64,000 bases of DNA from Parapedobacter koreensis. Its GTDB lineage: Bacteria; Bacteroidota; Bacteroidia; Sphingobacteriales; Sphingobacteriaceae. The position numbers and the translations under genes are program-made. The DNA is taken from positions 434,001-498,000 of the forward strand of contig NZ_FNZR01000003.1 of the NCBI RefSeq assembly GCF_900109365.1. The letters run 5' to 3'. Under the pieces are notes generated by a model. That model had not been told where the DNA came from. It searched no databases and worked only from the letters and a program-made list of their open reading frames with translations. Positions 29,554 through 43,685 of this stretch are shown piece by piece (the stretch's first letter is position 1; each line of letters opens with the position of its first letter).

Positions 29554-30825
29554 ATGTTGCAAGTTAATTATATCCGTGAAAACCGTGAACAAGTGATGGA
29601 ACGCTTGGCAGTGCGGAATTTCAAAGCATTGGAACTGGTAGACGAAATCATTTCACTCGATGAGCGGCGCAGGCAGATCCAAACCGAGTCTGACGCACTT
29701 GCAGCTGAATCCAATGCTGCCGCACGGCAAATCGGCGAACTGATGCGCCAGGGGAAACGCGATGAAGCGGAAGCTATCAAAGCCCGTTCGGGAGGATATA
29801 AAGAACAGCAGAAGAAACTGGCTGATGAGCAGGCCGCCACTGAAGCCGACCTGTATGAAAAGCTGGTACTACTGCCCAACTTGCCGCATCCATCCGTGCC
29901 CAAAGGGACAGGCGCGGAAGACAACGAGATTGTGCTGGAGCATGGCCATCGCCCCGAACTGCCGGAAAGTGCCCTGCCGCATTGGGAGCTTGCCGCAAAA
30001 TATGATATCATTGACTTCGAATTGGGTACCAAGGTTACGGGGGCGGGCTTCCCGGTATATAAAGGTAAAGGCGCGCGCCTACAACGGGCAATGATAAACT
30101 TTTTCCTCGACCAGGCCGAAAAAGCTGGATACAAAGAGGTTCAACCGCCTATCTTAATTAACGAAGCGTCCGGATTCGGCACAGGTCAGCTGCCCGACAA
30201 AGAAGGGCAGATGTATCATGTGGGCATCGATAATCTTTACCTCATTCCCACGGCTGAGGTGCCGGTGACCAACCTGTACCGCGATACCATTGTCAAGGAA
30301 GCGGATTTCCCCATCAAACTTACGGCTTACACGCCCTGTTTCCGACGCGAAGCCGGATCGTATGGTGCGCACGTACGTGGGCTGAACCGCTTGCATCAAT
30401 TTGACAAGGTAGAAGTCGTGCAGCTCGTGCATCCCGATAAATCATATGAAGTGCTGGAAACGATGAGCGCTTACGTGCAATCCCTGCTCCAGGCATTGAA
30501 TCTTCCTTATCGCGTACTGCGTCTTTGCGGCGGGGATATGGGATTCACTTCGGCGCTTACCTACGACATGGAGGTATGGAGCGCGGCCCAAAAACGCTGG
30601 CTGGAAGTATCTTCCGTATCCAATTTTGAAACCTACCAAAGCAATCGGCTGAAGGTGCGGTTCAAAGGTGAAAATGGCAAAATGCAACTGGCACATACAC
30701 TCAATGGCAGCGCGTTGGCGCTGCCCAGGATACTGGCTTCCATTTTGGAAGACAATCAAACAGACAGGGGAGTGAAAATTCCTGAAGCGCTGGTGCCGTA
30801 TACCGGATTTGAGTGGATTGATTAA
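29554..30825 (+). CDS. serS: Seryl-tRNA synthetase
   Basis: A 423-residue class II aminoacyl-tRNA synthetase. Residues 1-110 form the long antiparallel coiled-coil arm that binds the variable arm of tRNA-Ser (rich in Glu/Arg/Ala: DEIISLDERRRQIQTESDALAAES). The catalytic core carries motif 2 (PCFRREAGSYGAHVRGLNRLHQFDKVE) and motif 3 (NGSALALPRILASILE). The C-terminus PEALVPYTGFEWI is standard. It is convergent with the XRE gene, and the two stop codons overlap by four bases. Confidence 0.97.
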   Translation: MLQVNYIRENREQVMERLAVRNFKALELVDEIISLDERRRQIQTESDALAAESNAAARQIGELMRQGKRDEAEAIKARSGGYKEQQKKLADEQAATEADLYEKLVLLPNLPHPSVPKGTGAEDNEIVLEHGHRPELPESALPHWELAAKYDIIDFELGTKVTGAGFPVYKGKGARLQRAMINFFLDQAEKAGYKEVQPPILINEASGFGTGQLPDKEGQMYHVGIDNLYLIPTAEVPVTNLYRDTIVKEADFPIKLTAYTPCFRREAGSYGAHVRGLNRLHQFDKVEVVQLVHPDKSYEVLETMSAYVQSLLQALNLPYRVLRLCGGDMGFTSALTYDMEVWSAAQKRWLEVSSVSNFETYQSNRLKVRFKGENGKMQLAHTLNGSALALPRILASILEDNQTDRGVKIPEALVPYTGFEWID

Positions 30826-31199
30826 ATCAGCTCAAATCCGTATCGTTTTCCCAGATCTTCCACTTGTTTGATAAAAGCGGGCAAATTTTCCAGATTTTCC
30901 CTATTGGCAGCGATGCTGATGTTGACGGTTATTTTTGGTTGTTGACCGAGGTATTTGACCTTCTGCTCTTCGGGCATTTTATCCATAACATTGTCAAATG
31001 CGTGATTCGTGAAATCCAAGCCGGAAGCTTCTTTGAAGCTTTGAAGAAATTCGATATCAAATTTTTTTCGCAGATCGATTTGGTTGATCGTTTGTCTTGA
31101 CACGTTCATTTTCCTGGCAACAACGGAACCTTTAATTCCCCTTTCTTTCATCGTTTCTTTAATGATTTCCCCTAAAGTCCTGTTGTTTACCTTGGCCAT
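30822..31199 (-). CDS. XRE-family HTH regulator
   Basis: A 125-residue protein with an N-terminal helix-turn-helix (residues 8-60, IIKETMKERGIKGSVVARKMNVSRQTINQIDLRKKFDIEFLQSFKEASG). A short C-terminal helical region is probably for dimerisation. No peptidase or ligand domain is present. It reads away from the first SusC gene, and the promoter region between them contains two identical 17-bp sequences, one of which covers the -33 element of the SusC promoter. It may therefore regulate itself and the SusCD pair. The signal is unknown. Confidence 0.82.
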   Translation of the reverse strand: MAKVNNRTLGEIIKETMKERGIKGSVVARKMNVSRQTINQIDLRKKFDIEFLQSFKEASGLDFTNHAFDNVMDKMPEEQKVKYLGQQPKITVNISIAANRENLENLPAFIKQVEDLGKRYGFELI

Positions 31200-31207
31200 G
31201 TTGCGAA

Positions 31208-31287
31208 TTTATCTTGCTTTTTGTTAATTATATATTGACAAAAAGATACTTTTTCATAGAAAAATGTTGCTTTATCTTGCTTTTTGT
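31208..31287. repeat. Two 17-bp direct repeats, candidate XRE operators
   Basis: TTTATCTTGCTTTTTGT occurs at 31208-31224 and again at 31271-31287. The copies are 63 bp apart start to start, six helical turns. The first copy lies just upstream of the XRE start codon (31199). The second contains the TTG of the SusC promoter (31277-31279). A related ATCTTTTTGTC occurs on the opposite strand between them. The arrangement suggests cooperative binding and looping. Confidence 0.6.
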
Positions 31288-31307
31288 AAAAAATTGATTT
31301 ACATTTG
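31277..31307 (+). promoter_or_regulatory. Promoter of the first SusCD operon
   Basis: TTG (31277-31279), 20 bases, then TACATTTG (31300-31307), a full Bacteroidota -33/-7 promoter. The expected transcript start is near 31313, giving a leader of about 255 bases before the SusC ATG at 31571. The second SusCD operon has the same promoter layout and the same -7 octamer. Confidence 0.65.
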
Positions 31308-31570
31308 ACGTCGATTGATTGACATTGCGCATGAATGTAGTCATTCCTGCAAATACGAACCGCAAATGACATTTTATGAGAAAAATTTATCAACTATTAT
31401 TTCAAATCATAACCGCATCAACATTACAAAACCTATAGACATCCGTTTGGGTACTCAGCAAAATCAATTCCATCTACAGGTATAAAAATAATTGAAAAGC
31501 TAAGATAAAAAGAAATCCGGTTTCCGGATATGTGATTTATTTATTTACTAATTAACCAAATTCAAAACAC
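31308..31570 (+). promoter_or_regulatory. Long 5' leader of the first SusC gene
   Basis: There is no gene in this stretch. It contains a small hairpin GAATG-TAGT-CATTC (31333-31346) and, near the end, ATCCGG-TTT-CCGGAT (31515-31529). That is followed by an AT-rich block ending AATTAACCAAATTCAAAACAC directly before the ATG. The last hairpin and block recur in front of the second SusC gene (37071-37125), so they are likely functional parts of the leader. Confidence 0.6.
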
Positions 31571-34500
31571 ATGAAACACAAGGTACATGGCTTTATTTTA
31601 TTGTGCTGTATGCTTCTATGTTCAGTAGCGTATACACAAGAGAGGAGAATTTCAGGAAGGGTTTCTGGTCCTGACGGTGGCCCGATGGCAGGGGTGACGG
31701 TTGTTGCTACAGGCACATCAAGCGGTGTAACGACGGATGATTATGGTCGTTATACGATCAGTATCCCTGCAGGAACTGAAAGTTTGACTTTTCGCTTTAT
31801 CGGTTATACGCCGAAAGTGATCGCTGTTGGTACATCAAACGTATTGGATGCAGCATTGTCACCGGATCCTACCCAACTTGCGGAAGTGGTGGTGACTGGA
31901 GCTTATGGCATAAAGGCAACTTCGCGATCAGCTTCGCACAACGCCCAGGTTGTCAGCCAGGAGCAAATGAATACGATTCGCCAAACGGACATCAATAACG
32001 CACTGGCGGGTAAAGTGACCGGTATTCAAGTGCGGAGCCAGTCGCCCGCGGCGCTTGGCCGGGAAACCGAAGTCCGTCTTCGGGGGATGTCCGGTTTTAG
32101 TCAAGGTATGGGTGCGATTTATGTAGTAGATGGTACGATTCTGCCGAACATTAATGACATCAACCTCGATGATATCGACAATGTCTCGGTGTTGCAGGGG
32201 CCAGCTGCAGCAGCGCAATTTGGATCGCAAGGTGCAAACGGTGCAATCGTTATTACATTGCGAAAAGGACGGCAAACACCAGGTGTGGGTGTAACCGTAA
32301 ACCTGGGCGCTCAGTTTGATAATGTGTACGTGCTTCCAGCCTATCAAAACCTATATGCCGGCGGAGCCAATGCTAGTTTGACTCAGTATACCTGGCAAGA
32401 GGGACACCCCGAAGCGTGGCGAGCACTTGACGGTAAATATTACCACGATATGCAGGACGATGCCAGCTGGGGCCCACGTATGGAAGGGCAGGAGTATATT
32501 CCCTGGTATGCTTGGTATGGTGGGCATTCTCGTTCCTACCAAACAGCTTCATTGATGCCTCAACCGAACAATGCACGGGATTTCTTTGAGACAGGGGTTA
32601 CCTTAAATAACGGGATCACGTTTTCTTCGAGTACCGAAAAGTTGGACTTTAAGACCACGTTTAATAACCAGACCGTAAACGGGCTGTTGCCGGAAAGCTC
32701 CATGTCTAAAAACAACTTAAATGTAGTCACCACATATCGTCTGAACGATAAATTGGCGCTTTCCGCCAACATTAATTATATCAACAGGGAACTTAATGGC
32801 CTGATCCAGGATTCGTATGGAAGCACGAGTACGGGTTCGTTCAACCAATGGTTCCACCGGGACTTGGACATTGATATTTTGCGTGAATTGCGAGGTTTGA
32901 ACCATAATGGTATCTATGGAAGCTGGAATAAACGTAATCCAAATGCCTATGATCCAAGTAGTCCGGACGAATGGTATAGGGCCAACTATTGGTATAATCC
33001 ATATACCCAATATGATTTTAATCCCATTAGTGAACAAAACGACCGTTTGTTCGGGGACGTGTCGTTTACTTATAAAATCATCGATGGGCTGTCTGTAAAA
33101 GGAACTTACCGCAAGCAGCAAAATACGTATGTGCGTGAGGCCAGAACGTATACGGAACTGGAGAACAGTGCATATCAAACAGGTGTGTTCGGTGCATACG
33201 CTACACAGACGAGTTATCAAAACCGGGAAAACTTGGAGTTCTTGGCTTCTTATGATAAGACGTTCAACGATTTCAGCGTGAATGCCAATCTCGGGACAGA
33301 CTTTTTTAATGCGGTTTACCGTTCGAACGGCGCAAATACTAATCAAGGACTTACCGTTCCCAATGGATTTTTCATCTCCAACAGTGTACAGTCTCCAACT
33401 ATCGAAAACACGCGTTGGAATGAAAAATACAACGCGGTATTCGGAACAGCGGTATTGGGTTATAAAGACATGTTGTTCGCAAACGTTACATTGCGGAATG
33501 ATTGGTTCTCGACCCTGCCATCGGACAACAACGATGTATTGTCGAAGTCGTTTGGCGGATCGTTCGTGTTCACCGAATTGTTGCCTGGGATCTCTTGGTT
33601 GAGCTTCGGTAAAGTGCGCTACTCTTGGGGAGAAATCCCACAAGCTCTGGGAGAATCGCGAGGGCGATTCGGGGCCTATCGTTACCCCGGAATGGCGTAC
33701 TCCATTGGCAATAACCAGTGGAATGGCAATATCCTGATGCCAACACCGGATCAACTCGTGGATCCCAATATCCACGGTGCGGTAAATATGCAACAGGAAA
33801 TGGGTATAGACCTACGTTTCCTAAGCAACCGGTTAGGAGCGTCATTTACATACTGGAACGGGAAGGATAGGGATTTCCCTTTTTCGTTGACTGTTAACGG
33901 CGCAAGTGGATTCACTTCACTGTTGACCAACATTGGCGAGATTAAGAAAGAAGGTGTTGAGATCCAGTTGACAGCCCAACCCGTTGTCAAGCCAGGCTTC
34001 CGTTGGGATGTCAATTTTACTTATTCCCACCTGATCAGGAATGATGTTGTGGAGGTGAGCGAAGAATATTTGGTGACGAGATCGAACTCGGTGGCCAACG
34101 TCGCTTTTGGGAATTTGCCTCAAGCTTATCACGAAAAAGGAATGCGGTCTGGCCAGCTTATCGGCCGGGGTATCCTGCGCAATGACGATGGTGTGCCTAT
34201 TCTGAATAGCAACGGAAGTTATCAAGTCGATCCCGAAGTATTTTACGGGAGTGTCCTCCCCGATTTTACCGGTGGTATTCAAAACAGCTTCAATTTCTTG
34301 AATGATTTCTACCTGGCATTCAATATTGATTACCAATTCGGTGGAGTATTTGCGTCCCTTTCGGATGGTTTCGGGGCATACAGTGGCCTTAGTGCACGTA
34401 CCGCTGTAACAAACGATAAGGGAATGAATGTACGTGACGCTGTGGAAGATGGCGGTGGTATCAAAGTCGTTGGGGTGAATGCCAATAACGAGCCGGTAGA

Positions 34501-34813
34501 GTATTACGTAGACGTTCGCACCCATTACGTCAACATCTTCAATAACGGAACCGTAGATGAATACATTCACCCGCTGGATTTCATTAAATTGAGGGAAGTG
34601 TCTCTTGGCTACGATTTGCCCGTAAATAAGTGGAATTTGAGGCGGCTGGGAGTTCAAAACGCTAACTTTTCGATTGTTGGCCGCAACCTTTGGTTAATTC
34701 ATTCAAAGGCAAACGGGGACTATGATCCTTCAGAGATCAGCAGTTTCGCGGGCGAGACCGCACAATTGCCTGGCACGAGGGGTTGGGGTTTCAATTTACG
34801 CGTCGGATTTTAG
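31571..34813 (+). CDS. SusC/RagA-type TonB-linked outer-membrane transporter (first pair)
   Basis: A 1080-residue TonB-dependent transporter. Signal peptide (MKHKVHGFILLCCMLLCSVAYTQ), then a carboxypeptidase-regulatory-like domain (GRVSGPDGGPMAGVTVVATGTSSGVTTDDYGRYTI) and a plug (LAGKVTGIQVRSQSPAALG, IYVVDGTILPNINDINLDDIDNVSVLQGPAAAAQFGSQGANGAIVI) with SusC hallmarks. The large barrel ends RGWGFNLRVGF. With its SusD partner 29 bases downstream it should import an oligosaccharide or peptide; no glycoside hydrolase or protease gene is adjacent, so the substrate cannot be guessed. It has the unusually long leader described above, and an XRE regulator is divergent. Confidence 0.95.
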   Translation: MKHKVHGFILLCCMLLCSVAYTQERRISGRVSGPDGGPMAGVTVVATGTSSGVTTDDYGRYTISIPAGTESLTFRFIGYTPKVIAVGTSNVLDAALSPDPTQLAEVVVTGAYGIKATSRSASHNAQVVSQEQMNTIRQTDINNALAGKVTGIQVRSQSPAALGRETEVRLRGMSGFSQGMGAIYVVDGTILPNINDINLDDIDNVSVLQGPAAAAQFGSQGANGAIVITLRKGRQTPGVGVTVNLGAQFDNVYVLPAYQNLYAGGANASLTQYTWQEGHPEAWRALDGKYYHDMQDDASWGPRMEGQEYIPWYAWYGGHSRSYQTASLMPQPNNARDFFETGVTLNNGITFSSSTEKLDFKTTFNNQTVNGLLPESSMSKNNLNVVTTYRLNDKLALSANINYINRELNGLIQDSYGSTSTGSFNQWFHRDLDIDILRELRGLNHNGIYGSWNKRNPNAYDPSSPDEWYRANYWYNPYTQYDFNPISEQNDRLFGDVSFTYKIIDGLSVKGTYRKQQNTYVREARTYTELENSAYQTGVFGAYATQTSYQNRENLEFLASYDKTFNDFSVNANLGTDFFNAVYRSNGANTNQGLTVPNGFFISNSVQSPTIENTRWNEKYNAVFGTAVLGYKDMLFANVTLRNDWFSTLPSDNNDVLSKSFGGSFVFTELLPGISWLSFGKVRYSWGEIPQALGESRGRFGAYRYPGMAYSIGNNQWNGNILMPTPDQLVDPNIHGAVNMQQEMGIDLRFLSNRLGASFTYWNGKDRDFPFSLTVNGASGFTSLLTNIGEIKKEGVEIQLTAQPVVKPGFRWDVNFTYSHLIRNDVVEVSEEYLVTRSNSVANVAFGNLPQAYHEKGMRSGQLIGRGILRNDDGVPILNSNGSYQVDPEVFYGSVLPDFTGGIQNSFNFLNDFYLAFNIDYQFGGVFASLSDGFGAYSGLSARTAVTNDKGMNVRDAVEDGGGIKVVGVNANNEPVEYYVDVRTHYVNIFNNGTVDEYIHPLDFIKLREVSLGYDLPVNKWNLRRLGVQNANFSIVGRNLWLIHSKANGDYDPSEISSFAGETAQLPGTRGWGFNLRVGF

Positions 34814-34842: not shown

Positions 34843-36261
34843 ATGATGAAAAGAATATATAAAATGCTAACTGCAACTTGCTTTGTTTTATCAGTTGCGG
34901 GGTGTGATAAGCTCGAAGATTTCGGCGACACGAACGTCAATCCAGGTGCGGCGACGGAGCCGGTTATCGGGGGATTGTTGACGAATGTACAAGCGAATAT
35001 CGGTTCGTATGCCTATGATACGCGAGGAGGGTTGTACGCTCAGATTTTCTCAGAAACGCAATATACGGACGTTTCTTTGTATGGAAGACCTGAATTGGCA
35101 TTTACCGATTATTACCGATTGTATCTCAATGATTTGCAAAATATTATCAATACAGGGGAAAGTAATAATATGACACAAATCTCGCGGATTCTGCAGCAGT
35201 ACATCTTTTTTGTTTTAACAAACCTTTGGGGTGATGTACCTTACGGTGAGGCGTTACAGGGCGACGTGAACCTTCAGCCGCGATATGATCGGCAAGAGGA
35301 TATCTACCGTGGTATATTTCAGACCCTGGGCGAAGCCGTGGATTCGTTCGATGACAGCGCGATTACCGGGGATATCATCTTTGGGGGTGATGTGGATGCG
35401 TGGAGGCGCGCTGCCAACTCGTTGAAATTAGTTGCTGCTATACAGCTTTCGAAAGCGGTTCCGACTGCCGATGGGTTTGCCGCAGAAGCTTTCCGTGAAG
35501 CGCTTGCAGCAACGGGCGGCGTGATTACCACCAATGCTCAAAATTTCCAAGTGAATTATCCGGGTGGAAATTTCCAAAGCCCGTATTTCACGCGTTATCT
35601 CACACGTCAGGATTATGCCGAAAGTGAACCGCTGGTTAGCCTCTTACTTGAATTGGAGGATACACGGCAAAGCGTTTATGGCAGTTCCAATGTGGGTATG
35701 CCGTATGGTTTACCACGGACAGGGGCTGAAGGTTCTGAAGCCTTTACGTCAGCTAATCCCAACTGGTCTCGGATATTTAGTGAGGACGCGAGACCGGAAG
35801 ATGGCAGTGTTTACATCATTACTGCGGCTCAAGTCGCATTGGCTCGGGCCGAAGCCTCGGATTTAGGCTGGACGACAGAGAACTTATCTGATCTCTATAC
35901 GACGGGTATTGAACTTTCCCACGCACAATGGGGCGTTGATATGTCTGCTGGATATTTAACCGGAGACGGTGTAGCACTTACGGCAGTAGCGGGATCAGGG
36001 GCAAATGTAGCGCAGATTTCTATCCAGCGTTATATCGCCAGCTATCCTGATGGTACACAGGCATGGAGCATTTGGCGTAAGTCGGGTTATCCTGTTCTGA
36101 CACCCACACCGCATGCAACAAGTGAAACCGGAGAAATTCCAAGAAGGTATATCTATGCCACAGCCGAATTCTCAACCAACAGAGCAAGTGTTGAAGAGGC
36201 TATTGCCAACTTACCCGGCGGGAATACCGCTGAAGCGCGGGTTTGGTGGGATCAAGAATAA
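34843..36261 (+). CDS. SusD/RagB family surface lipoprotein (SusD-like_2 type)
   Basis: A 472-residue lipoprotein (lipid Cys in LSVAGCDKLEDFG). The next segment, FGDTNVNPGAATEP, and the helical TPR-like core (FVLTNLWGDVPYGEAL, WRRAANSLKLVAAIQLSKAV) match the SusD-like_2 branch, which differs from classical SusD. It should cap the SusC barrel and bind the substrate. ATG 34843 is followed by a second in-frame ATG at 34846; AGGGAG lies in the 29-base gap after SusC. It is followed by the 102-bp element 36281-36382. Confidence 0.9.
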   Translation: MMKRIYKMLTATCFVLSVAGCDKLEDFGDTNVNPGAATEPVIGGLLTNVQANIGSYAYDTRGGLYAQIFSETQYTDVSLYGRPELAFTDYYRLYLNDLQNIINTGESNNMTQISRILQQYIFFVLTNLWGDVPYGEALQGDVNLQPRYDRQEDIYRGIFQTLGEAVDSFDDSAITGDIIFGGDVDAWRRAANSLKLVAAIQLSKAVPTADGFAAEAFREALAATGGVITTNAQNFQVNYPGGNFQSPYFTRYLTRQDYAESEPLVSLLLELEDTRQSVYGSSNVGMPYGLPRTGAEGSEAFTSANPNWSRIFSEDARPEDGSVYIITAAQVALARAEASDLGWTTENLSDLYTTGIELSHAQWGVDMSAGYLTGDGVALTAVAGSGANVAQISIQRYIASYPDGTQAWSIWRKSGYPVLTPTPHATSETGEIPRRYIYATAEFSTNRASVEEAIANLPGGNTAEARVWWDQE

Positions 36262-36280: not shown

Positions 36281-36382
36281 ATACCGGCGGTTTCCCGGAA
36301 TTGTTCCGCTCGTATTTCATGTGTTTGTGAATCCAAAACAGTTCTATCGCGAAAAAAGGGGCTCCCAGCCCCTTTTTTATTG
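36281..36382 (+). repeat. 102-bp exact repeat, copy 1, 3' of the first SusD gene
   Basis: Identical base for base to 41715-41816, which follows the second SusD gene. It begins ATACCGGCGGTTTCCCGG, contains a small GGAA-TTG-TTCC hairpin and a conserved middle with no open frame kept with the upstream gene, and ends in a strong terminator (36352-36378). It starts 20 bases after this SusD stop codon but only eight after the other, so the coding ends differ and the element was added as a unit. It could be a 3'-UTR-derived regulatory RNA or a mobile repeat. Confidence 0.9.
36352..36378 (+). terminator. Terminator of the first SusCD operon
   Basis: A 12-bp perfect stem AAAAAAGGGGCT / AGCCCCTTTTTT with a CCC loop, with T-run built into the stem; a strong rho-independent terminator working in both directions. 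Confidence 0.9.
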
Positions 36383-36679: not shown

Positions 36680-37125
36680 GCGTTAATGATGGAACATTTT
36701 ATTGTTTTGTCTTAAAAAAATCTTTTTTTGGTAAGAATGTTTGTTGTTTAGAATGACAAACACAATTAGAACAAACACAAACACACATCAATTTAGAACA
36801 AACACAAATCCCATCAATTAGAACAAACAAACACAAAGCAATACACACTTTTGAGGAAAATTTACTAAATTATTCTGAACCATTGAATCAAACAACCGGG
36901 CCCGGTAATTGAGATTTTGTTAACGTAGTTTGATCGACCGCAAGAATTAAATACTAGGAAATATTGTAATTGGATTTCCATCTTGTTGATGGAAGAAACT
37001 TGTAGTGCCGTATGCAAATAGTTTGTATACAAGGACCTGCAATATCGGATACTATCGTATCCGCAAAGGAATCCGTTTTTCGGATGTATAGTAATTCATT
37101 ATTAATTAACCAAATTCAAAAACAC
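36680..37125 (+). promoter_or_regulatory. Long structured 5' leader of the second SusC gene
   Basis: No gene. Perfect or near-perfect hairpins: TGTTTGT/ACAAACA (36738-36762), palindrome ACCGGGCCCGGT (36895-36906), TTCCATC/GATGGAA (36976-36994), GTATGCAAA/TTTGTATAC with one G-U (37010-37030), CGGATAC/GTATCCG (37046-37063) and ATCCG/CGGAT (37071-37085). The last two share complementary pentamers, so CGGAT 37046-37050 can instead pair with ATCCG 37071-37075, and ATCCG 37059-37063 with CGGAT 37081-37085; these are mutually exclusive folds. The final block AATTAACCAAATTCAAAA before the ATG matches the first SusC leader. Confidence 0.6.
36763..36838 (+). repeat. Three imperfect direct repeats, CAATTAGAACAAACACAAA
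   Basis: Copies begin at 36763, 36789 and 36815, exactly 26 bases apart, with a weaker related segment at 36748. The stretch is rich in A and C and nearly free of G on the coding strand, so the leader RNA would be unstructured here. The even spacing and low G suggest a binding tract for an RNA-binding protein or Hfq/Rho-like loading, but this is speculation. Confidence 0.7.
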
Positions 37126-40100
37126 ATGAAACAAAAATTACTTGGGTTTTTCATGTTGGGCATCTTGCTGATCGGATCAGCGTATGCTCAAGACAAGCGG
37201 CTCAGCGGCACTGTCGTCAGTGCCGAAGACAATTCGCCACTAAGTGGCGTCAGCGTTCGGGTGGAAGGTTCTTCGATGTCCACGTCAACGGACAACAGCG
37301 GCCGGTACACCATCACGGCAAATACCGGGGATGTGCTGGTTTTTACCTACCTTGGCTATGCCGAACAGCGGATTACGGTCGGCACAACCGCTATTATTGA
37401 TGTTTCCATGTTGACTGATGCGCAACAGTTGGATGAAGTCATCGTATCCGGTGTGGCTGGAGCTACGGATAAAAGGAAAATGACCGTGTCTGTAACTAAA
37501 ATCGGAGAAGCTCAACTTAATGCAGTACCCGCTACTTCGCTTTCTTCTGCATTGACAGGGAAAGTAGCAGGCTTGAGGACCTCTTCGGTAGGAGGTGCAC
37601 CCGGCCAACAGGCAGACATTCTGCTTAGGGGTGATAACGTTTTGGGTGTCAGTGCTTCTCCGCTTATTTTGATCGATGGAATCATCATGCAAGGTAGCCT
37701 TGCCGACATTAACGTGGACGACGTTGAATCTATGGAAGTAATCAAAGGTGCAGCTGCCTCTGCGCTTTATGGTTCGCGTGCAGGAAGCGGCGTTATTGCT
37801 ATTACGACCAAAAGAGGCAAAGGTGCCGCTCTAGGACAGACTCAGGTTACTGTCAGAAATGAAGTAGGGTTTCAGAATCTTCAGCATTATATGGAAACGT
37901 CGCAGGCACACTTGTATAAACTTGCTGATGATTGGGAACAATATCGGGGCCAATATACTAAATATGCTGGTGTTACGTTTCCTGAAGGCTATACAGGTGG
38001 ATATAATGCCGGCATTTCGGGATCCCGGGCAATTGATGATGACGGATATATGGATAACCCGTATGGTGTGTATCGTTTTGATCCGGCTGATGTGTTTAAA
38101 ACAGGGAATACGTTGACTAACTTCGTTGGTGTGTCTAACAGGACAGAGAAAAATAACATTTATTTATCTTTTGAAAATAATGTTCAACAGGGTGTGGTCC
38201 AATACCGTGATGGGTATTCAAGGCAGAATTACCGTTTCAATATGGATCAAGAACTAGCTCCTTGGTTAAAAGTGAGTGCCACTAACTTATTTATTAACAG
38301 AAATGTACAACAGCCGTCAGGTATATTCTATAATGTGTCTCGTATGGAAAAAGATATTGATTTGTTTGCTCTTAACTCCGACGGTCAGCCTTATAATATA
38401 AGGGTGAATCACTTCAACTCAGAAGTAACCAATCCCTTGTACCCTTTATATAAACAGAGCGATAACAGGAATACCCGTCGCTGGATGGGTAACTATTCGG
38501 CCAATGTCAAGTTCGCTGAGTGGGCTAACCTTGATGTCAGCCAAACCCTGGAAATTGAAAATTACAGAAGGGAAGTGATCAATCCCAAGGACACATGGAA
38601 CGCTGCGGCTACTGCTTATACAAATGGTTCGCTTCAACATGAGAGTGAGGAATACGCTACTTACAACACACAAATTACACTTAACCTCAATAAGCAGTTT
38701 GGCGACCTGAGGGTAAATTCCAAGTTGTCGTACTTGTACGAGAACCGTAATTATGAACGAACAAATACACAGGCTTCTGCATTCATCGTTTCCGATATCG
38801 AGGCTTTCAACAATTTCACCGTCATCAATAGTGCAGCCTCCAGCAAAGAGAAAGAAAGGGCGCAAAACTATTTTGCCATTGTAGGGCTCGATTATAAAGA
38901 CCGGTATTTGCTTGACGGGATGTTCCGTTATGACGGATCTTCATTGTTTGGCCCCGATGCACGCTGGAATCCGTACTACAGGTTGTCTGGAGCTTATCGG
39001 ATATCCCAGGATGTAAATATTCAGGGTATAGACGAATTGAAAGTAAGGGCAGCATATGGTACTGCTGGGATACGTCCTGAATTCGCATGGCAATATGAAG
39101 TATATACTCTGTCCTCTGGGGTAGCAACGGCAAGCCAAAAAGGCAACACGGAGTTGAGGCCTTCGCAAACTGCAGAACTCGAATTTGGTTTAAATGTTGA
39201 TTTTCTTAAGAAATTTGCATTTGAAGGCGTGTATGCGCGCTCCAAGACTACGGATCAGTTTCTTAATGTTCCACTTATTGGCTTCCTAAACGACGGATTT
39301 ACCAGTCAACGGCAAAATGCTGGTACAGTAGAATCGAATACGTTAGAGCTGATGTTGGGGGCCAATTGGGTAAGGAAGAATGACTTTTCTTGGAGCTCTA
39401 ATATTGTGTTCTCCAGAATTCGCCAAGAAATCACGGAATTACCAATTCCTGCGTATTGGTTAAGTGCGGTTAACGGCGACGTGAATGCATTCCGTATTGC
39501 AGAAGGTGAGACGTACGGTGCTATTTATGGTCGCAGAATGGTAAGAACCTTGGACGAAATGGCAAGACAGCTTCCGGCAGGAGCGAGTATTGCTGATTAT
39601 ACAGTGAATAGTGAAGGTTATGTGATCGCTGCTGGAACGGAAGGTACAACAACTGAACGACCGATTGTCTACACTGAAAACGGTGCGCCCTGGCTGGGCA
39701 AAATAGGGGATGGAAATGCTAAGTTTAACATGGGTATCGCCAATACGTTTAACTACAAAGGGGTTACGCTCTACGTGCTGCTCGACTGGAAAAACGGTGG
39801 CGATGTATATAACAGTAATGAGCAACGCATGGCGTTCAACAACGTCAGTCAACGACAAGACATGACCAACGTGCCGGAAGGGCAAAAGAAAGCCGCCTCA
39901 TACTGGACTGTTGGTATGTATGATGCCAATAATGCCAATGCCTATTGGGTGGAAGACGCGTCCTATTTAAAACTGAGGGAAGTGGCTATTGGATATACCA
40001 TTCCTGCAAAAGCGCTTAGCGGCTTTTTACATGGTACGATTAAGGGGCTTACAATCAAAGCCGTAGGCAGAAATCTGTATACCTTTACAAATTATTCGGG

Positions 40101-40200
40101 TTATGATCCGGAGGTGGGTACCCTAAGACAGCCTCTTGACGGAATTGGAACGAACCCAATCTATAGAAACTTTGCGTTCTCTTTGGGATTCAATTTGTAA
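37126..40200 (+). CDS. SusC/RagA-type TonB-linked outer-membrane transporter (second pair)
   Basis: A 1024-residue transporter with the same domain order as the first SusC: signal peptide (MKQKLLGFFMLGILLIGSAYAQ), carboxypeptidase-regulatory-like domain (LSGTVVSAEDNSPLSGVSVRVEG), plug (LTGKVAGLRTSSVGGAPGQQADILLRGDNVLG, LIDGIIMQGSLADINVDDVESMEVIKGAAASALYGSRAGSGVIAI) and barrel ending NFAFSLGFNL. The protein has clearly diverged from the first SusC, so its substrate is probably different. The start is ATG 37126; in-frame codons from 37012 upstream lie inside leader hairpins. The SusD partner begins 20 bases after its stop. Confidence 0.95.
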   Translation: MKQKLLGFFMLGILLIGSAYAQDKRLSGTVVSAEDNSPLSGVSVRVEGSSMSTSTDNSGRYTITANTGDVLVFTYLGYAEQRITVGTTAIIDVSMLTDAQQLDEVIVSGVAGATDKRKMTVSVTKIGEAQLNAVPATSLSSALTGKVAGLRTSSVGGAPGQQADILLRGDNVLGVSASPLILIDGIIMQGSLADINVDDVESMEVIKGAAASALYGSRAGSGVIAITTKRGKGAALGQTQVTVRNEVGFQNLQHYMETSQAHLYKLADDWEQYRGQYTKYAGVTFPEGYTGGYNAGISGSRAIDDDGYMDNPYGVYRFDPADVFKTGNTLTNFVGVSNRTEKNNIYLSFENNVQQGVVQYRDGYSRQNYRFNMDQELAPWLKVSATNLFINRNVQQPSGIFYNVSRMEKDIDLFALNSDGQPYNIRVNHFNSEVTNPLYPLYKQSDNRNTRRWMGNYSANVKFAEWANLDVSQTLEIENYRREVINPKDTWNAAATAYTNGSLQHESEEYATYNTQITLNLNKQFGDLRVNSKLSYLYENRNYERTNTQASAFIVSDIEAFNNFTVINSAASSKEKERAQNYFAIVGLDYKDRYLLDGMFRYDGSSLFGPDARWNPYYRLSGAYRISQDVNIQGIDELKVRAAYGTAGIRPEFAWQYEVYTLSSGVATASQKGNTELRPSQTAELEFGLNVDFLKKFAFEGVYARSKTTDQFLNVPLIGFLNDGFTSQRQNAGTVESNTLELMLGANWVRKNDFSWSSNIVFSRIRQEITELPIPAYWLSAVNGDVNAFRIAEGETYGAIYGRRMVRTLDEMARQLPAGASIADYTVNSEGYVIAAGTEGTTTERPIVYTENGAPWLGKIGDGNAKFNMGIANTFNYKGVTLYVLLDWKNGGDVYNSNEQRMAFNNVSQRQDMTNVPEGQKKAASYWTVGMYDANNANAYWVEDASYLKLREVAIGYTIPAKALSGFLHGTIKGLTIKAVGRNLYTFTNYSGYDPEVGTLRQPLDGIGTNPIYRNFAFSLGFNL

Positions 40201-40219: not shown

Positions 40220-41707
40220 ATGAAAAAATCACATAGATTACTTTTTATTGCTTTTGTTTCTGCGGGCCTGGCCGGTTGTGAAGACAACCTTTTGGATATA
40301 CCGAATGAAAATAACCCGGATTTTGCACGTGTATATGCTACGGGTGCTGACGTAGAAAATGTGGCTTCGGGCCTCTACAATGCAATTTTCATAGGAGAAA
40401 ATAGCACGAGCGGTGTGCAACCTATGTTAGCTACTGCGGCCGATAACGTAACCTGCTCATTCGGCAACTTCGGTATGCGAGATATGTCTTGGGAACCCCG
40501 TAATTTTGCATGGGACAATTCCCCCACCTATGCCAATAGCGGTCAGACAAACTATTCTTATAATCAATGGTACTCAGCTATAGGCACAGCTTCTAATGTG
40601 TTGAGAGCACTTGATGGGGGGGTTCAGATTGGCGCTAATGGATCCGGTAACAACCGTACCCGGGCTTTTGCCAAATTTATCTTAGGTCTTGGCTATGGAA
40701 ATCTGGCACTCGTATTTGACAGGGCCCATGTCGTAGACGAGACTAAAACAGTTGAGGCAGCGCTTGAGACAGCTGTTCCTTACGAGGAGGTTGCATCGGC
40801 AGCTATTGCTTATCTGGAAGAGGCGTTAGCTTTATCCAATGAATCTTTCACCATTCCGGCAAGCTGGTTAGGCGCACCCGCAGATGTAAGCAGTGCTGAT
40901 TTTAGAAAAATCATTAATACTTCTGCGGCCCGTATCCTTGCTTATCTTCCAAGAAATAACGCAGCCCTTGCCAGCGTGGATTGGGCCCAGGTTAGCGCTT
41001 ACGCGGATAATGGTATTACTGCTGATTGGCTTGTCCTGCAAGATGGTACATCCAGATGGAGCTTTAATTCAGGAGATTATCTAAGACGCGTTGGTTGGGG
41101 TAGGACCGACATGTACGTAGTTAACATGATGGAGCCGTCTTTACCTGATTATTGGGAAGACCGTGGTGATTTCCCAACGCCCCCTGAACCGGCAACCTCT
41201 TTGGATAACCGTTTAAAAACAGATTTTGAGTATATGCCATCTAACGACTTTATTGCTGACAGGGGGTACTATCACTTCAGTTGCTACAGGTTTAAACGAT
41301 ACGATGCTGTTTTTCAGCCCAATATCGGATCGAAACCAACGGTGGCGTTAGCCGAGAATGATATGTTGAGAGCGGAGGCGAAGGCCTATTCAGGAGATCT
41401 TGCAGGCGCAGCAGCTATTATCAATGCGGGCACCCGTGTTACCAGGGGTAGCTTGGCTCCCGTAGCCGCTAACCTTGATGATATCATTGAAGCGATTCAC
41501 CATGAAAGGCACGTAGAGCTTCATACTACCGGCTTTGGGGTACAGTTCTTTCAAATGAGAAAATTAGACTTTTTACAAATTGGTACTCCCTTGCAATTAC
41601 CATTGCCGGGTGCCTTACTTCAAAATTTAGGATTAACGGAGTTCTATACCTTTGGAACAGTTGCTGCCGCTGACGGTATCGGCACATCTAATGGCGGTTG
41701 GAGGTAA
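40220..41707 (+). CDS. RagB/SusD family surface lipoprotein (second pair)
   Basis: A 495-residue lipoprotein (MKKSHRLLFIAFVSAGLAGCEDNLL, lipid Cys in LAGC). The helical body has DIPNENNPDFARVYATGADVENVASGLYNAIF and the TPR-like FRKIINTSAARILAYLPRNNAALASVDWAQVSAYADNGI. It ends with the typical SusD pattern AIHHERHVELHTTGFGVQFFQMRKLDFLQIGTPLQLPLPG. It differs in type from the first SusD, yet is followed eight bases later by the identical 102-bp element. The start ATG 40220 is chosen for the signal peptide. Confidence 0.92.
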   Translation: MKKSHRLLFIAFVSAGLAGCEDNLLDIPNENNPDFARVYATGADVENVASGLYNAIFIGENSTSGVQPMLATAADNVTCSFGNFGMRDMSWEPRNFAWDNSPTYANSGQTNYSYNQWYSAIGTASNVLRALDGGVQIGANGSGNNRTRAFAKFILGLGYGNLALVFDRAHVVDETKTVEAALETAVPYEEVASAAIAYLEEALALSNESFTIPASWLGAPADVSSADFRKIINTSAARILAYLPRNNAALASVDWAQVSAYADNGITADWLVLQDGTSRWSFNSGDYLRRVGWGRTDMYVVNMMEPSLPDYWEDRGDFPTPPEPATSLDNRLKTDFEYMPSNDFIADRGYYHFSCYRFKRYDAVFQPNIGSKPTVALAENDMLRAEAKAYSGDLAGAAAIINAGTRVTRGSLAPVAANLDDIIEAIHHERHVELHTTGFGVQFFQMRKLDFLQIGTPLQLPLPGALLQNLGLTEFYTFGTVAAADGIGTSNGGWR

Positions 41708-41714
41708 TATCCGC

Positions 41715-41816
41715 ATACCGGCGGTTTCCCGGAATTGTTCCGCTCGTATTTCATGTGTTTGTGAATCCAAAACAGTTCTATCGCGAAAAAAGGGGCTCCC
41801 AGCCCCTTTTTTATTG
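41715..41816 (+). repeat. 102-bp exact repeat, copy 2, 3' of the second SusD gene
   Basis: Identical to 36281-36382 over the full length. It ends 36 bases short of... no other flanking identity: the bases on both sides differ from copy 1, so the repeat edges are sharp at ATACCGG and TTATTG. No terminal inverted repeats or target duplications were seen. Confidence 0.9.
41786..41812 (+). terminator. Terminator of the second SusCD operon
   Basis: Same 12-bp stem AAAAAAGGGGCT / AGCCCCTTTTTT with CCC loop as in copy 1. The convergent methyltransferase gene ends six bases later, so the hairpin may stop transcripts from both sides. Confidence 0.9.
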
Positions 41817-41818
41817 AA

Positions 41819-42520
41819 CTATGTTGATAGGGGCGTCATTCGCGCCAAATACTGGTCGGTTTCGTCTTCATACAGTATTTGTACGACCCAGCCTTCGGCG
41901 TGGGCAAGTTGGATCAGGGTCTGCTGGTCAATAAATAGCCAGTTAAATGGTTTGCCCCAAATGCCCTTATATCCGTATTGGTACCTTATCTCGCCATAAT
42001 ACCCTGTGGGTTTGTCCACAGTGCCGTCTGCATAGAGGTAAGCAATATCCGAGGAGTCAAACAGCAACTGGCCACCTTTATTCAGCAAGGATTGGCTGTG
42101 CCGGAGCAGCTTTTTCAACCCCTCGATGCTACCGGCAATGCCGATGCCATTCATCATAAACAATAACGTGTCGTACTTATGACCTTGGTGCCGGAAGAAA
42201 TCATCGTGGATCACATCCCGGACACCCCGTTCGCGCATAAGCGTGCACGCCAGCCGTGAATGTTCCAATGCGGTCACCGTGGCGCCTTGCGCTTGGAGGT
42301 GCAAGGCGTGGCTGCCTGCACCGGCTCCTACGTCGAGCACATGGCCGTCGCACAATGCCATGGCAATATCTTCCAATTCGGGGAAATCATCCGGCCCGCG
42401 AAAGAATACATCTACGGGCATCTCTTCGCTATCGGTGTAGCTAGTATGAAGTAACAGCTTTTTGCTGCGTTTTCCATGGAAATAATCGATTAGGGCATTA
42501 CCAAGTACGTCGTTGGCCAT
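41819..42520 (-). CDS. Class I SAM-dependent methyltransferase
   Basis: A 233-residue protein. The SAM-binding motif I is HVLDVGAGAGSHALHLQAQG, followed by TALEHSRLACTLMRERGV and a catalytic-region LLFMMNGIGIAGS. No substrate motif is recognised. The start ATG 42520 lies one base after the nicotinate phosphoribosyltransferase stop codon, indicating an operon with that gene. The N-terminal extension to 42640 would overlap the pncB coding region and is rejected. Confidence 0.85.
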   Translation of the reverse strand: MANDVLGNALIDYFHGKRSKKLLLHTSYTDSEEMPVDVFFRGPDDFPELEDIAMALCDGHVLDVGAGAGSHALHLQAQGATVTALEHSRLACTLMRERGVRDVIHDDFFRHQGHKYDTLLFMMNGIGIAGSIEGLKKLLRHSQSLLNKGGQLLFDSSDIAYLYADGTVDKPTGYYGEIRYQYGYKGIWGKPFNWLFIDQQTLIQLAHAEGWVVQILYEDETDQYLARMTPLST

Positions 42521-42521
42521 G

Positions 42522-43685
42522 TCAGGGAATATGGAGAATTTGTTTGGCGAGGGCAATGGTTGCAGCATCGCCGGTGTGCTTGCCCGGTTCGTCCGAAAGC
42601 TTGATGGCAGGGGTCCATTGGGCCTCTTCTGGAAAGGCATCGATCATTTTAATAACGATATTCATGGGTACCAATCCGACATCATTGGTGAAGTTGGTGC
42701 CCACGCCGAACGACATGCCGATCCGGCCGTGGCAATGCTCCACGATTCGGGCTACTTTTTCATAATTCAGCCCATCGGAGAAAATGATGGTTTTCGATAG
42801 CGGCTCGATGCCTTTTGATTGATAGTGCCGGATAGTGTTGTCTGCAAAGGCCAACGGATCGCCGCTGTCATGGCGTACACCATCAAATAATTTGCTGAGT
42901 TTTTTGTCAAACTGCGAAAAAAAGACGGCTGACGTATAGGTGTCGGAAAGTGCAATGCCCAAATCGCCACGGTATACGTCCGACCAATGTTCCAATCCCA
43001 AGAGGTTGGCCATTTTAAATCCATATTTGGCAGCATGGAACATAAACCACTCGTGGGCATGAGTACCAATGGGCTTAGTTTGGTAAAGCATGGCCATGTA
43101 CACATTGCTTGTTCCGATGAATGTCCCTTCACCATATTGTTTGAGCGCCTGCACCACCAGACGGTGTACACCATAGGAATGTCGTCTGCGGGTGCCGAAT
43201 TCGGCAATGGTGACACCCAATTGTCGATATAATGCGATTTTTTTGTGTGCGGTGGCGGTGACTTCCTCATCCGATTGCCGCTGCCCGTTGGTCATCCCGT
43301 AGTACAATTCACAGATAAGTGACATGATGGGTACTTCCCAAAGAATAGTGCGGTACCAATAGCCTTCAACAACTACTTCGATTTCCTCGCCATGCTGGCG
43401 GATGTAGACTTCTTCAGGGTCATATCGATAGCCTTGTAGGAAATCGAAATAGGTAGGATCGATATAGGGACAGGTAGCAGCAAAATACTGTTTTTCCTGC
43501 GGGGTCAACTGCAACCTCGCCAATTCATCAATGGCCTTCCGCAGTTCCTCGGCAAATCCAGCAGGAAATTTATGCCCCCCGCGATTGATAAACTCGTACC
43601 TCGCTTTGGCTTTGGGAAATAGCTTCACCACGGCGTTTTGCATGGTGAATTTGTAAAAGTCGTTGTCCAGTAGGGAATTGATCAT
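42522..43685 (-). CDS. pncB: Nicotinate phosphoribosyltransferase
   Basis: A 387-residue enzyme converting nicotinate and PRPP (with ATP) to nicotinate mononucleotide, the entry of the Preiss-Handler NAD salvage route. Conserved segments: NDFYKFTMQNAVVKLFPKAKARYEFINRG, TFIGTSNVYMAMLYQTKPIGTHAHEWFMFH (phosphorylated His region), GVRHDSGDPLAFADNTIRHYQ and SFGVGTNFTNDVG. Length fits the bacterial enzyme. PnuC at 16.9 kb may feed the same pathway with nicotinamide riboside. It leads the operon with the methyltransferase. Confidence 0.96.
   Translation of the reverse strand: MINSLLDNDFYKFTMQNAVVKLFPKAKARYEFINRGGHKFPAGFAEELRKAIDELARLQLTPQEKQYFAATCPYIDPTYFDFLQGYRYDPEEVYIRQHGEEIEVVVEGYWYRTILWEVPIMSLICELYYGMTNGQRQSDEEVTATAHKKIALYRQLGVTIAEFGTRRRHSYGVHRLVVQALKQYGEGTFIGTSNVYMAMLYQTKPIGTHAHEWFMFHAAKYGFKMANLLGLEHWSDVYRGDLGIALSDTYTSAVFFSQFDKKLSKLFDGVRHDSGDPLAFADNTIRHYQSKGIEPLSKTIIFSDGLNYEKVARIVEHCHGRIGMSFGVGTNFTNDVGLVPMNIVIKMIDAFPEEAQWTPAIKLSDEPGKHTGDAATIALAKQILHIP

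Follow-up and report, generated by a model that had tools for sequence, protein, structure and literature searches.

An XRE-type regulator gene, paired 17-bp direct repeats and differing SusC/SusD genes at one conserved locus of Parapedobacter

SusC/SusD pairs decide the import range of Bacteroidota, and the locus described here raises the question of whether such a pair can be governed by a small XRE-type regulator. The DNA analysed, referred to as the window, is a stretch of 64,000 nucleotides from Parapedobacter koreensis. Its serS gene (29554-30825, plus strand; Seryl_tRNA_N and tRNA-synt_2b) forms the fixed left flank of the locus, and a methyltransferase-domain gene (41819-42640) together with a NAPRTase gene (42522-43685), both recognised by Pfam and occupying 41819-43685 on the minus strand, forms the fixed right flank. 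An open reading frame for an XRE/Cro-C1-type regulator of 125 aa (30822-31199, minus strand) overlaps the end of serS by 4 bp, and two SusCD units are encoded on the plus strand. In the first, a gene for a SusC/RagA TonB-linked porin (31571-34813), the present client, exceeds the cut-off of the family model TIGR04056 (473.5 bits, cut-off 368) and adjoins a gene for a SusD-like lipoprotein (34843-36261; SusD-like_2, PF12771, 280.6 bits, cut-off 27), which identifies the two as a SusC/SusD pair. The second consists of another TIGR04056 gene (37126-40200), whose likely start is the methionine of MKQKLL at 37126, the mechanical ORF start being 37012, and of a further SusD-like lipoprotein gene (40220-41707), for which the Pfam SusD matches fall below cut-off; both have orthologs in P. 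luteus. Upstream of the second SusC gene, positions 36763-36835 hold three degenerate copies of CAATTAGAACAAACACAAACA.

The repeat pair and the predicted promoters

The sequence TTTATCTTGCTTTTTGT occurs as two exact 17-bp copies on the plus strand, R1 (31208-31224) and R2 (31271-31287), which start 63 bp apart, corresponding to six helical turns at 10.5 bp per turn. The initial annotation had reported this repeat and its spacing, with one copy beside the XRE start and the other over the -33 element of the SusC promoter, and these observations were borne out. R1 and R2 are the sole exact copies of the 17-mer in the 5.5-Mb genome; R1 lies 8 bp from the XRE ATG (31199, minus strand), inside the predicted XRE promoter, and R2 includes the TTG (31277-31279) located 20 bp upstream of TACATTTG (31300-31307). 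When the 371-bp intergenic sequence was shuffled 5000 times with its dinucleotides preserved, one shuffle produced an exact 17-bp repeat, and a scan of the window with up to three mismatches returned two matches, namely R1 and R2 (expected 0.27; two reached in 2 of 100 shuffles). A wider regulon of the 17-mer in this genome was set aside, since the whole-genome scan at the same tolerance gave 52 matches against 52 for the reversed control.

Promoters of Bacteroidota carry a -7 box of the form TAnnTTTG, situated at -12 to -5 according to the relevant passages of PMC9723704, and a -33 TTTG element described in those of PMC7366714. The predicted SusC promoter TTG-N20-TACATTTG (31277-31307, plus strand), with TACATTTG as its predicted -7 element and a predicted +1 near 31312, matches the housekeeping consensus and recurs at all five loci that carry the XRE gene, those of the window, P. 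luteus, P. tibetensis, Olivibacter sitiensis and the Parapedobacter genome G006. R2, the predicted SusC-side operator, covers about -41 to -25 of this promoter. On the minus strand, TAAATTCG (31204-31211), set at -12 to -5 following the passage in PMC9723704, is the predicted XRE -7 element and corresponds to TATTTTTG in P. luteus and TATCTTTG in P. tibetensis, with R1, the predicted XRE-side operator, covering -25 to -9. Because this box puts the predicted +1 on the A of the ATG, the XRE mRNA is probably leaderless. This prediction weighs against the explanation proposed below, as mRNAs with no leader or almost none are uncommon in Bacteroidota, at about 4-6% in the corresponding passages of PMC7366714 and PMC9723704.

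The explanation that we hold to be probable is an autoregulated XRE repressor acting on R1 and R2 at an expression site whose SusCD clients can be exchanged. Briefly, the small XRE protein would bind both sites and repress its own gene through R1, which overlaps its own, probably leaderless, promoter, and R2 would overlap the -33 region of the divergent SusCD promoter, with a half-dyad extending to the -7 element. We infer the binder of the repeats to be the XRE protein, the effect of binding to be repression, and a shared helical face of the two sites to matter; a pair of dimers seated on the same DNA face would agree with the unvarying distance of 63 bp. A dyad built on R1, CTTTTTGTTAAT-TATAT-ATTGACAAAAAG (31217-31245), forms 13 of 14 pairs in P. 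tibetensis and 11 in the window, and the number falls to 9 in P. luteus, 6 in O. sitiensis and 4 in G006. As it is strong in the window and P. tibetensis only, it was rejected as the defining operator and treated as secondary, and its lack of conservation in O. sitiensis counts against the repressor explanation.

The same arrangement could be read with the opposite sign at SusC, in that XRE would activate this gene from a class II position around -33 to -42 and repress itself, as does lambda CI, an activator and self-repressor acting at OR2. The extent of R2 agrees with such a position, and G006 keeps R2 though R1 is lost. However, R2 contains the -33 TTG and, at loci with a visible dyad, its other half falls on the -7 element, which is a blocking position, and a promoter fitting the TTG-N20-TAnnTTTG consensus so well should not need an activator; activation of SusC is thus unlikely.

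The XRE protein and the distribution of its gene and sites

The XRE protein (P0001) scores 18.4 bits against Pfam HTH_3, below the cut-off of 23, and its AlphaFold2 model (mean pLDDT 43.4, with five sequences only in the alignment) is unusable, both of which weaken the repressor explanation. A homologue at locus L020 passes HTH_3 at 25.5, and the PHROG families phrog_8 (regulator, 1.4e-6) and phrog_3 (repressor, 6.8e-5) were matched by all six aligned XRE members. Residues 5-60 gave a profile match (E 0.002) to chain 8tac_A, DBP48, which we take to be a designed DNA-binding protein and which lends weak support to an HTH in the XRE protein; the other five of the six solved-structure matches, spanning 14-16 residues of pentatricopeptide proteins, were discarded. 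An Enterococcus match (L016, 44% over 42 residues) was likewise dropped as HTH-only. Searches with Pfam and NCBIfam recognised no sensing domain in the protein.

Pairwise comparison of the XRE genes of the window, P. luteus and P. tibetensis (three pairs) gave a dN of 0.04-0.12 with 76-88% of synonymous sites changed, and by this measure the gene is under purifying selection. This bears on the idea of a leftover mobile-element or prophage repressor with no present role, suggested by the PHROG families being those of a phage regulator and a phage repressor and by the small element-like genes that adjoin distant homologues (judged from ORF text and scanned at L020 only). Purifying selection on the gene, conservation of its sites, and searches of viral contigs, phages and plasmids that found no relative make such a relic extremely improbable. 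O. sitiensis has a further XRE-like copy (L015, 7678-8034), which is without the first residues and without the operator sites and has a gene for a DUF4143 ATPase and a transposase of the Mutator type as its neighbours; it was kept in the XRE alignment and left out of the locus count.

Within the genus, the XRE protein is encoded in four of nine genomes, namely the window's own (G000), P. luteus (G004), G006 and P. tibetensis (G008), the G006 protein being the most diverged (57%) and differing within the HTH stretch. Protein records outside the window's own genome came from P. luteus, P. tibetensis and O. sitiensis (G043), in whose genus one of five genomes has the gene. A profile search of the family found XRE-type matches in 39 of 399 genomes at E<=0.001, of which the strong ones (E<1e-59) were confined to G000, G004, G006, G008 and G043 and the others reached 9.5e-27 or weaker; class-wide, 1 of 395 genomes, the window's own, reached 1e-12.

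At all five XRE loci the gene diverges from a SusC gene that is followed by a SusD gene. The initial annotation had staked its proposal on conservation of the repeats in relatives with the same gene pair, and conserved they are: XRE diverges from SusC in all four relatives, three of which keep both copies 63 bp apart, the fourth (G006) keeping the SusC-side copy. Exact 63-bp spacing is accordingly found at four of the five loci (window, P. luteus, P. tibetensis and O. sitiensis), and R2 is recognisable in all five, with 10-15 of 17 positions common between pairs. Alignment of the four loci with both sites, anchored on TACATTTG (8 of 8 positions invariant), revealed invariant columns at 15 of 17 positions of R1, 11 of 17 of R2 and 14 of 46 in the stretch between them, and pairwise identities of 88-100%, 71-88% and 48-67%, respectively. 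Several features of this comparison tell against the repressor explanation. The stretch between the sites is itself 48-67% identical, making the contrast one of degree; R2 overlaps a promoter element, which accounts for some of its conservation; since R1 is lost from G006, the pair can be dispensed with; and the four Parapedobacter-type loci share ancestry, so that only O. sitiensis and a locus in genome G062 are more independent.

The G062 locus, from another genus, encodes an XRE homologue that is 26% identical (blastp 1e-14), and its divergent promoter contains TTGCTTTTTGTATC, with the element TTGCTTTTTGTA, as part of TTG-N20-TACATTTG. The divergent genes are not of the SusC type and comprise a 77-aa ORF with no Pfam match and a GerE/LuxR-type protein. 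In the nine genomes of the genus, the consensus ATYTTGCTTTTTGTWAA without mismatch occurs at six places, which are R1 and R2 of G000, G004 and G008, and at none in the five genomes that lack XRE. With one mismatch it occurs at 11 further places against 4 in the reversed control: R2 of G006, eight sites elsewhere in G000, G004 and G008, and one site each in G001 and G002. The last two are genomes without XRE, and these additional places speak against the repressor explanation. Judged by occurrence, the repeat sites track the XRE gene: within the genus the exact consensus is limited to XRE-positive genomes, and the distant homologue of G062 has the same TTGCTTTTTGTA element on its divergent promoter.

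Repeat geometry alone does not single out an XRE protein. The passages of PMC3878776 on SusR-like regulators infer direct repeats 67 or 77 bp apart, that is six or seven turns, near Sus-type genes. This comparison should be taken seriously, and the link to XRE that the initial annotation had drawn from repeats six turns apart is weakened to this extent. A SusR-like or other membrane-linked activator might hence bind both sites, with XRE as an unrelated neighbour, 63 bp being close to these distances. Nevertheless, the spacing is 63 bp at 4 of 4 loci with both sites, at neither SusR-type distance, and SusR as presented there is a membrane protein sensing maltose, whereas the linked gene here encodes a 125-aa HTH protein. 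Across the nine genomes the exact consensus lies only beside the XRE gene, and it accompanies this gene to O. sitiensis and, as a single site, to the non-SusC client of G062. All ORFs of at least 80 aa between serS and NAPRTase in the window encode XRE, SusC, SusD or methyltransferase proteins, with no SusR-like membrane regulator among them (ORFs of the other three loci were assigned from ORF text, two in G008 having no Pfam match). Control by such an activator is therefore very unlikely.

On a wider scale, 27 small-XRE loci of the family were compared, being those of 41 family profile matches that had a locus (11 had none), minus L009-L011, for which an analysis already existed, and including O. 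sitiensis and G006. A TTG-N19-21-TAnnTTTG promoter on the divergent strand within 250 bp was found at 10 of them, and its absence from the remaining 17 argues against the repressor explanation. All 10 promoters begin 75-87 nt from the start of the XRE match (77 in the window); 300 shuffle rounds gave 0.39 loci anywhere and 0.01 in the 75-87 nt interval, which was chosen after the positions had been seen. No such promoter (0 of 27 loci) points towards XRE. The scanned clients are of the SusC type (L035, L037), the sigma-70/ECF type (L024, L042) and the LuxR type (L020). L024 and L042 represent another small-XRE subfamily, divergent to their sigma-70/ECF-type genes and with ACTAT/ATAGT repeats around -33, which L025, L026, L036 and L043 resemble in ORF text; L024 also has a FecR-like ORF with no Pfam match. 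A third XRE subfamily is divergent to SusC-type receptors in L035 and L037, and in L035 a DUF5712 gene follows XRE, perhaps as part of a mobile island.

Differing SusCD pairs behind an orthologous head

The flanks of the locus are shared throughout the genus: serS is 84-94% identical in the eight other genomes, NAPRTase is 78-87% identical and present in all nine, and the two flank the locus in 9 of 9. The interval between them holds XRE with one or two SusCD units in G000, G004, G006 and G008. In G001, G005 and G007 it holds the methyltransferase gene alone, which in G002 and G003 is accompanied by a DUF6266-type gene of 244-245 aa (scanned in G002). XRE and SusCD are accordingly present or absent together in all nine genomes. 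Were the repeats to serve XRE autoregulation alone, with SusC a bystander, as the place of R1 inside the predicted XRE promoter and the common habit of small regulators to control themselves would allow, this joint occurrence would not be expected. In addition, R2 sits on the SusC -33 element at all five loci and G006 has retained it at the SusC promoter with R1 lost, which renders a purely autoregulatory role decidedly unlikely.

Sequence comparison of the clients gave a different picture from that of the flanks. The XRE, serS and right-flank genes are orthologous although the XRE-linked SusC genes are non-orthologous in most species. Over long alignments, the SusC proteins linked to XRE share 24-31% identity, with the exception of P. 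tibetensis and G006 (49%), and the first SusC of the window aligns with that of O. sitiensis at 40% over 246 aa only. Fast divergence of an orthologous SusC was ruled out by relatives of the first SusC at 65% and of its SusD partner at 62-63% in G219 and G116. Relatives of this SusD at E<=1e-100 occur in 42 of 399 family genomes including its own, with no other in the genus. At the five loci of such relatives that were read, the ORF text shows no XRE-like ORF next to them, and TTGCTTTTTGT is absent.

Comparison of the window with P. luteus places the limits of the proposed exchange. The second SusCD is orthologous, at 84% DNA identity across a 7.2-kb stretch that takes in the right flank, homology on the XRE side stops at window position 31333, 26 bp past the -7 element, and the first SusCD alone is non-orthologous; since the second pair is orthologous, only the XRE-linked pair would have been exchanged. 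By this evidence the control head and its SusCD client evolve separately. The XRE gene, R1, R2 and the SusC promoter would form a fixed control head, behind which SusCD pairs would be swapped as clients. The XRE switch of the initial annotation persists in so far as the repeat pair, the 63-bp spacing and a divergent SusC recur in relatives, but it is not tied to one SusC. In P. luteus, the XRE-linked SusC gene (L013 around 5474, NZ_FUYS01000015.1) is frameshifted near the N-terminus and represents a pseudogene, a switchable frame or an assembly error.

A 102-bp element ending in a terminator hairpin lies 3' of both units of the window on the plus strand, at 36281-36382 and, after the second SusD, at 41715-41816, the two copies being identical in 102 of 102 columns. 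The element follows all seven SusCD units of G000, G004, G006 and G008, and in the genus it is confined to this locus, in six of nine genomes at E<=1e-4. Copies within a genome agree at 102 of 102 positions in G000, 102 of 102 in G004 and 98 of 102 in G008, and between G000 and G004 at 89 of 102. On these identities the element shows concerted evolution, for which its copies must have either recombined with each other or been duplicated recently. Remnants of it behind serS in G002 and G003 (L068, L069), where relatives carry XRE and SusCD, suggest that these genomes lost the XRE/SusCD unit. The portion of the element ahead of the hairpin is likewise conserved, and it may be more than a terminator; an Rfam search of window positions 29-44 kb returned nothing at E<=0.5.

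On the 5' side, even unrelated SusC genes share about 72-85% identity in the stretch for the leader and signal peptide. It is plausible that this stretch on one side and the 102-bp element on the other are the crossover sites, and we infer that clients were exchanged between them by homologous recombination. No recombinase gene is visible in the serS-NAPRTase interval of the window. O. sitiensis shows no 3' element in the 12 kb searched, which detracts from this part of the explanation.

Relation to known systems and significance for outer-membrane uptake

In common with lambda CI/Cro-type systems, the proposed head comprises an HTH protein of small size and a short region between divergent genes that contains several operators, one of them over the regulator's own promoter with a probably leaderless mRNA. 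It differs from them in its SusC/SusD transporter client and in having two direct repeats 63 bp apart instead of clustered dyads. Hybrid two-component systems (HTCS) and ECF sigma/anti-sigma pairs, which the initial annotation had listed with SusR as the usual controllers, resemble it in linking a regulator gene to the SusCD operon, according to the passages of PMC3878776 on these regulators. Nonetheless, HTCS sites are 21 bp apart on average in those passages as against 63 bp here, and the serS-NAPRTase interval of the window contains neither an HTCS gene with repeats of about 21 bp nor sigma/anti-sigma genes beside SusC. The SusC/SusD shufflon of B. fragilis, with Tsr0667, likewise has variable SusC/SusD genes at one locus in the account given in the consulted part of PMC4747536; here, by contrast, the exchange is between species and the long repeats are direct. 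The window's serS-NAPRTase ORFs include no invertase gene, and the sole long inverted pair between the units is the palindromic terminator of the 102-bp element.

A search of titles and the starts of abstracts found no description of XRE control of SusCD; subscription journals lay outside this search, which is no proof of absence. In the portion of PMC10434189 consulted, the text contains no XRE, and HTH genes occur in tables and passages only. Both XRE repressors and variable SusCD genes belong to known kinds, and their combination appears to be a new variation on them.

Taken together, a conserved regulator and two-site promoter standing before differing transporters suggest a reusable switch for outer-membrane uptake. 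A broader and more tentative proposal, which we regard as possible, is that of a plug-in transporter expression site with a client-independent head and two phased operators, in which whole SusCD pairs are swapped by recombination between the SusC leader and the 102-bp element. Elsewhere in the family the layout, fitted with other operators, would be used again to serve further SusC genes, sigma genes of the ECF type and other clients, and XRE switches would be a regular, unrecognised mode of SusCD control. The described SusCD controllers SusR and HTCS sense the glycan concerned, according to the same passages of PMC3878776. For the XRE repressor, a general cellular cue is more likely as the release signal than the client's own substrate, because the clients change while the head does not.

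If this explanation is true, control would be uncoupled from substrate by a head that is conserved while its clients change, and a newly acquired SusCD pair could be expressed at once. The head offers a ready promoter to test in Sphingobacteriaceae, and the signal read by an XRE repressor of SusCD would become directly testable through comparison.
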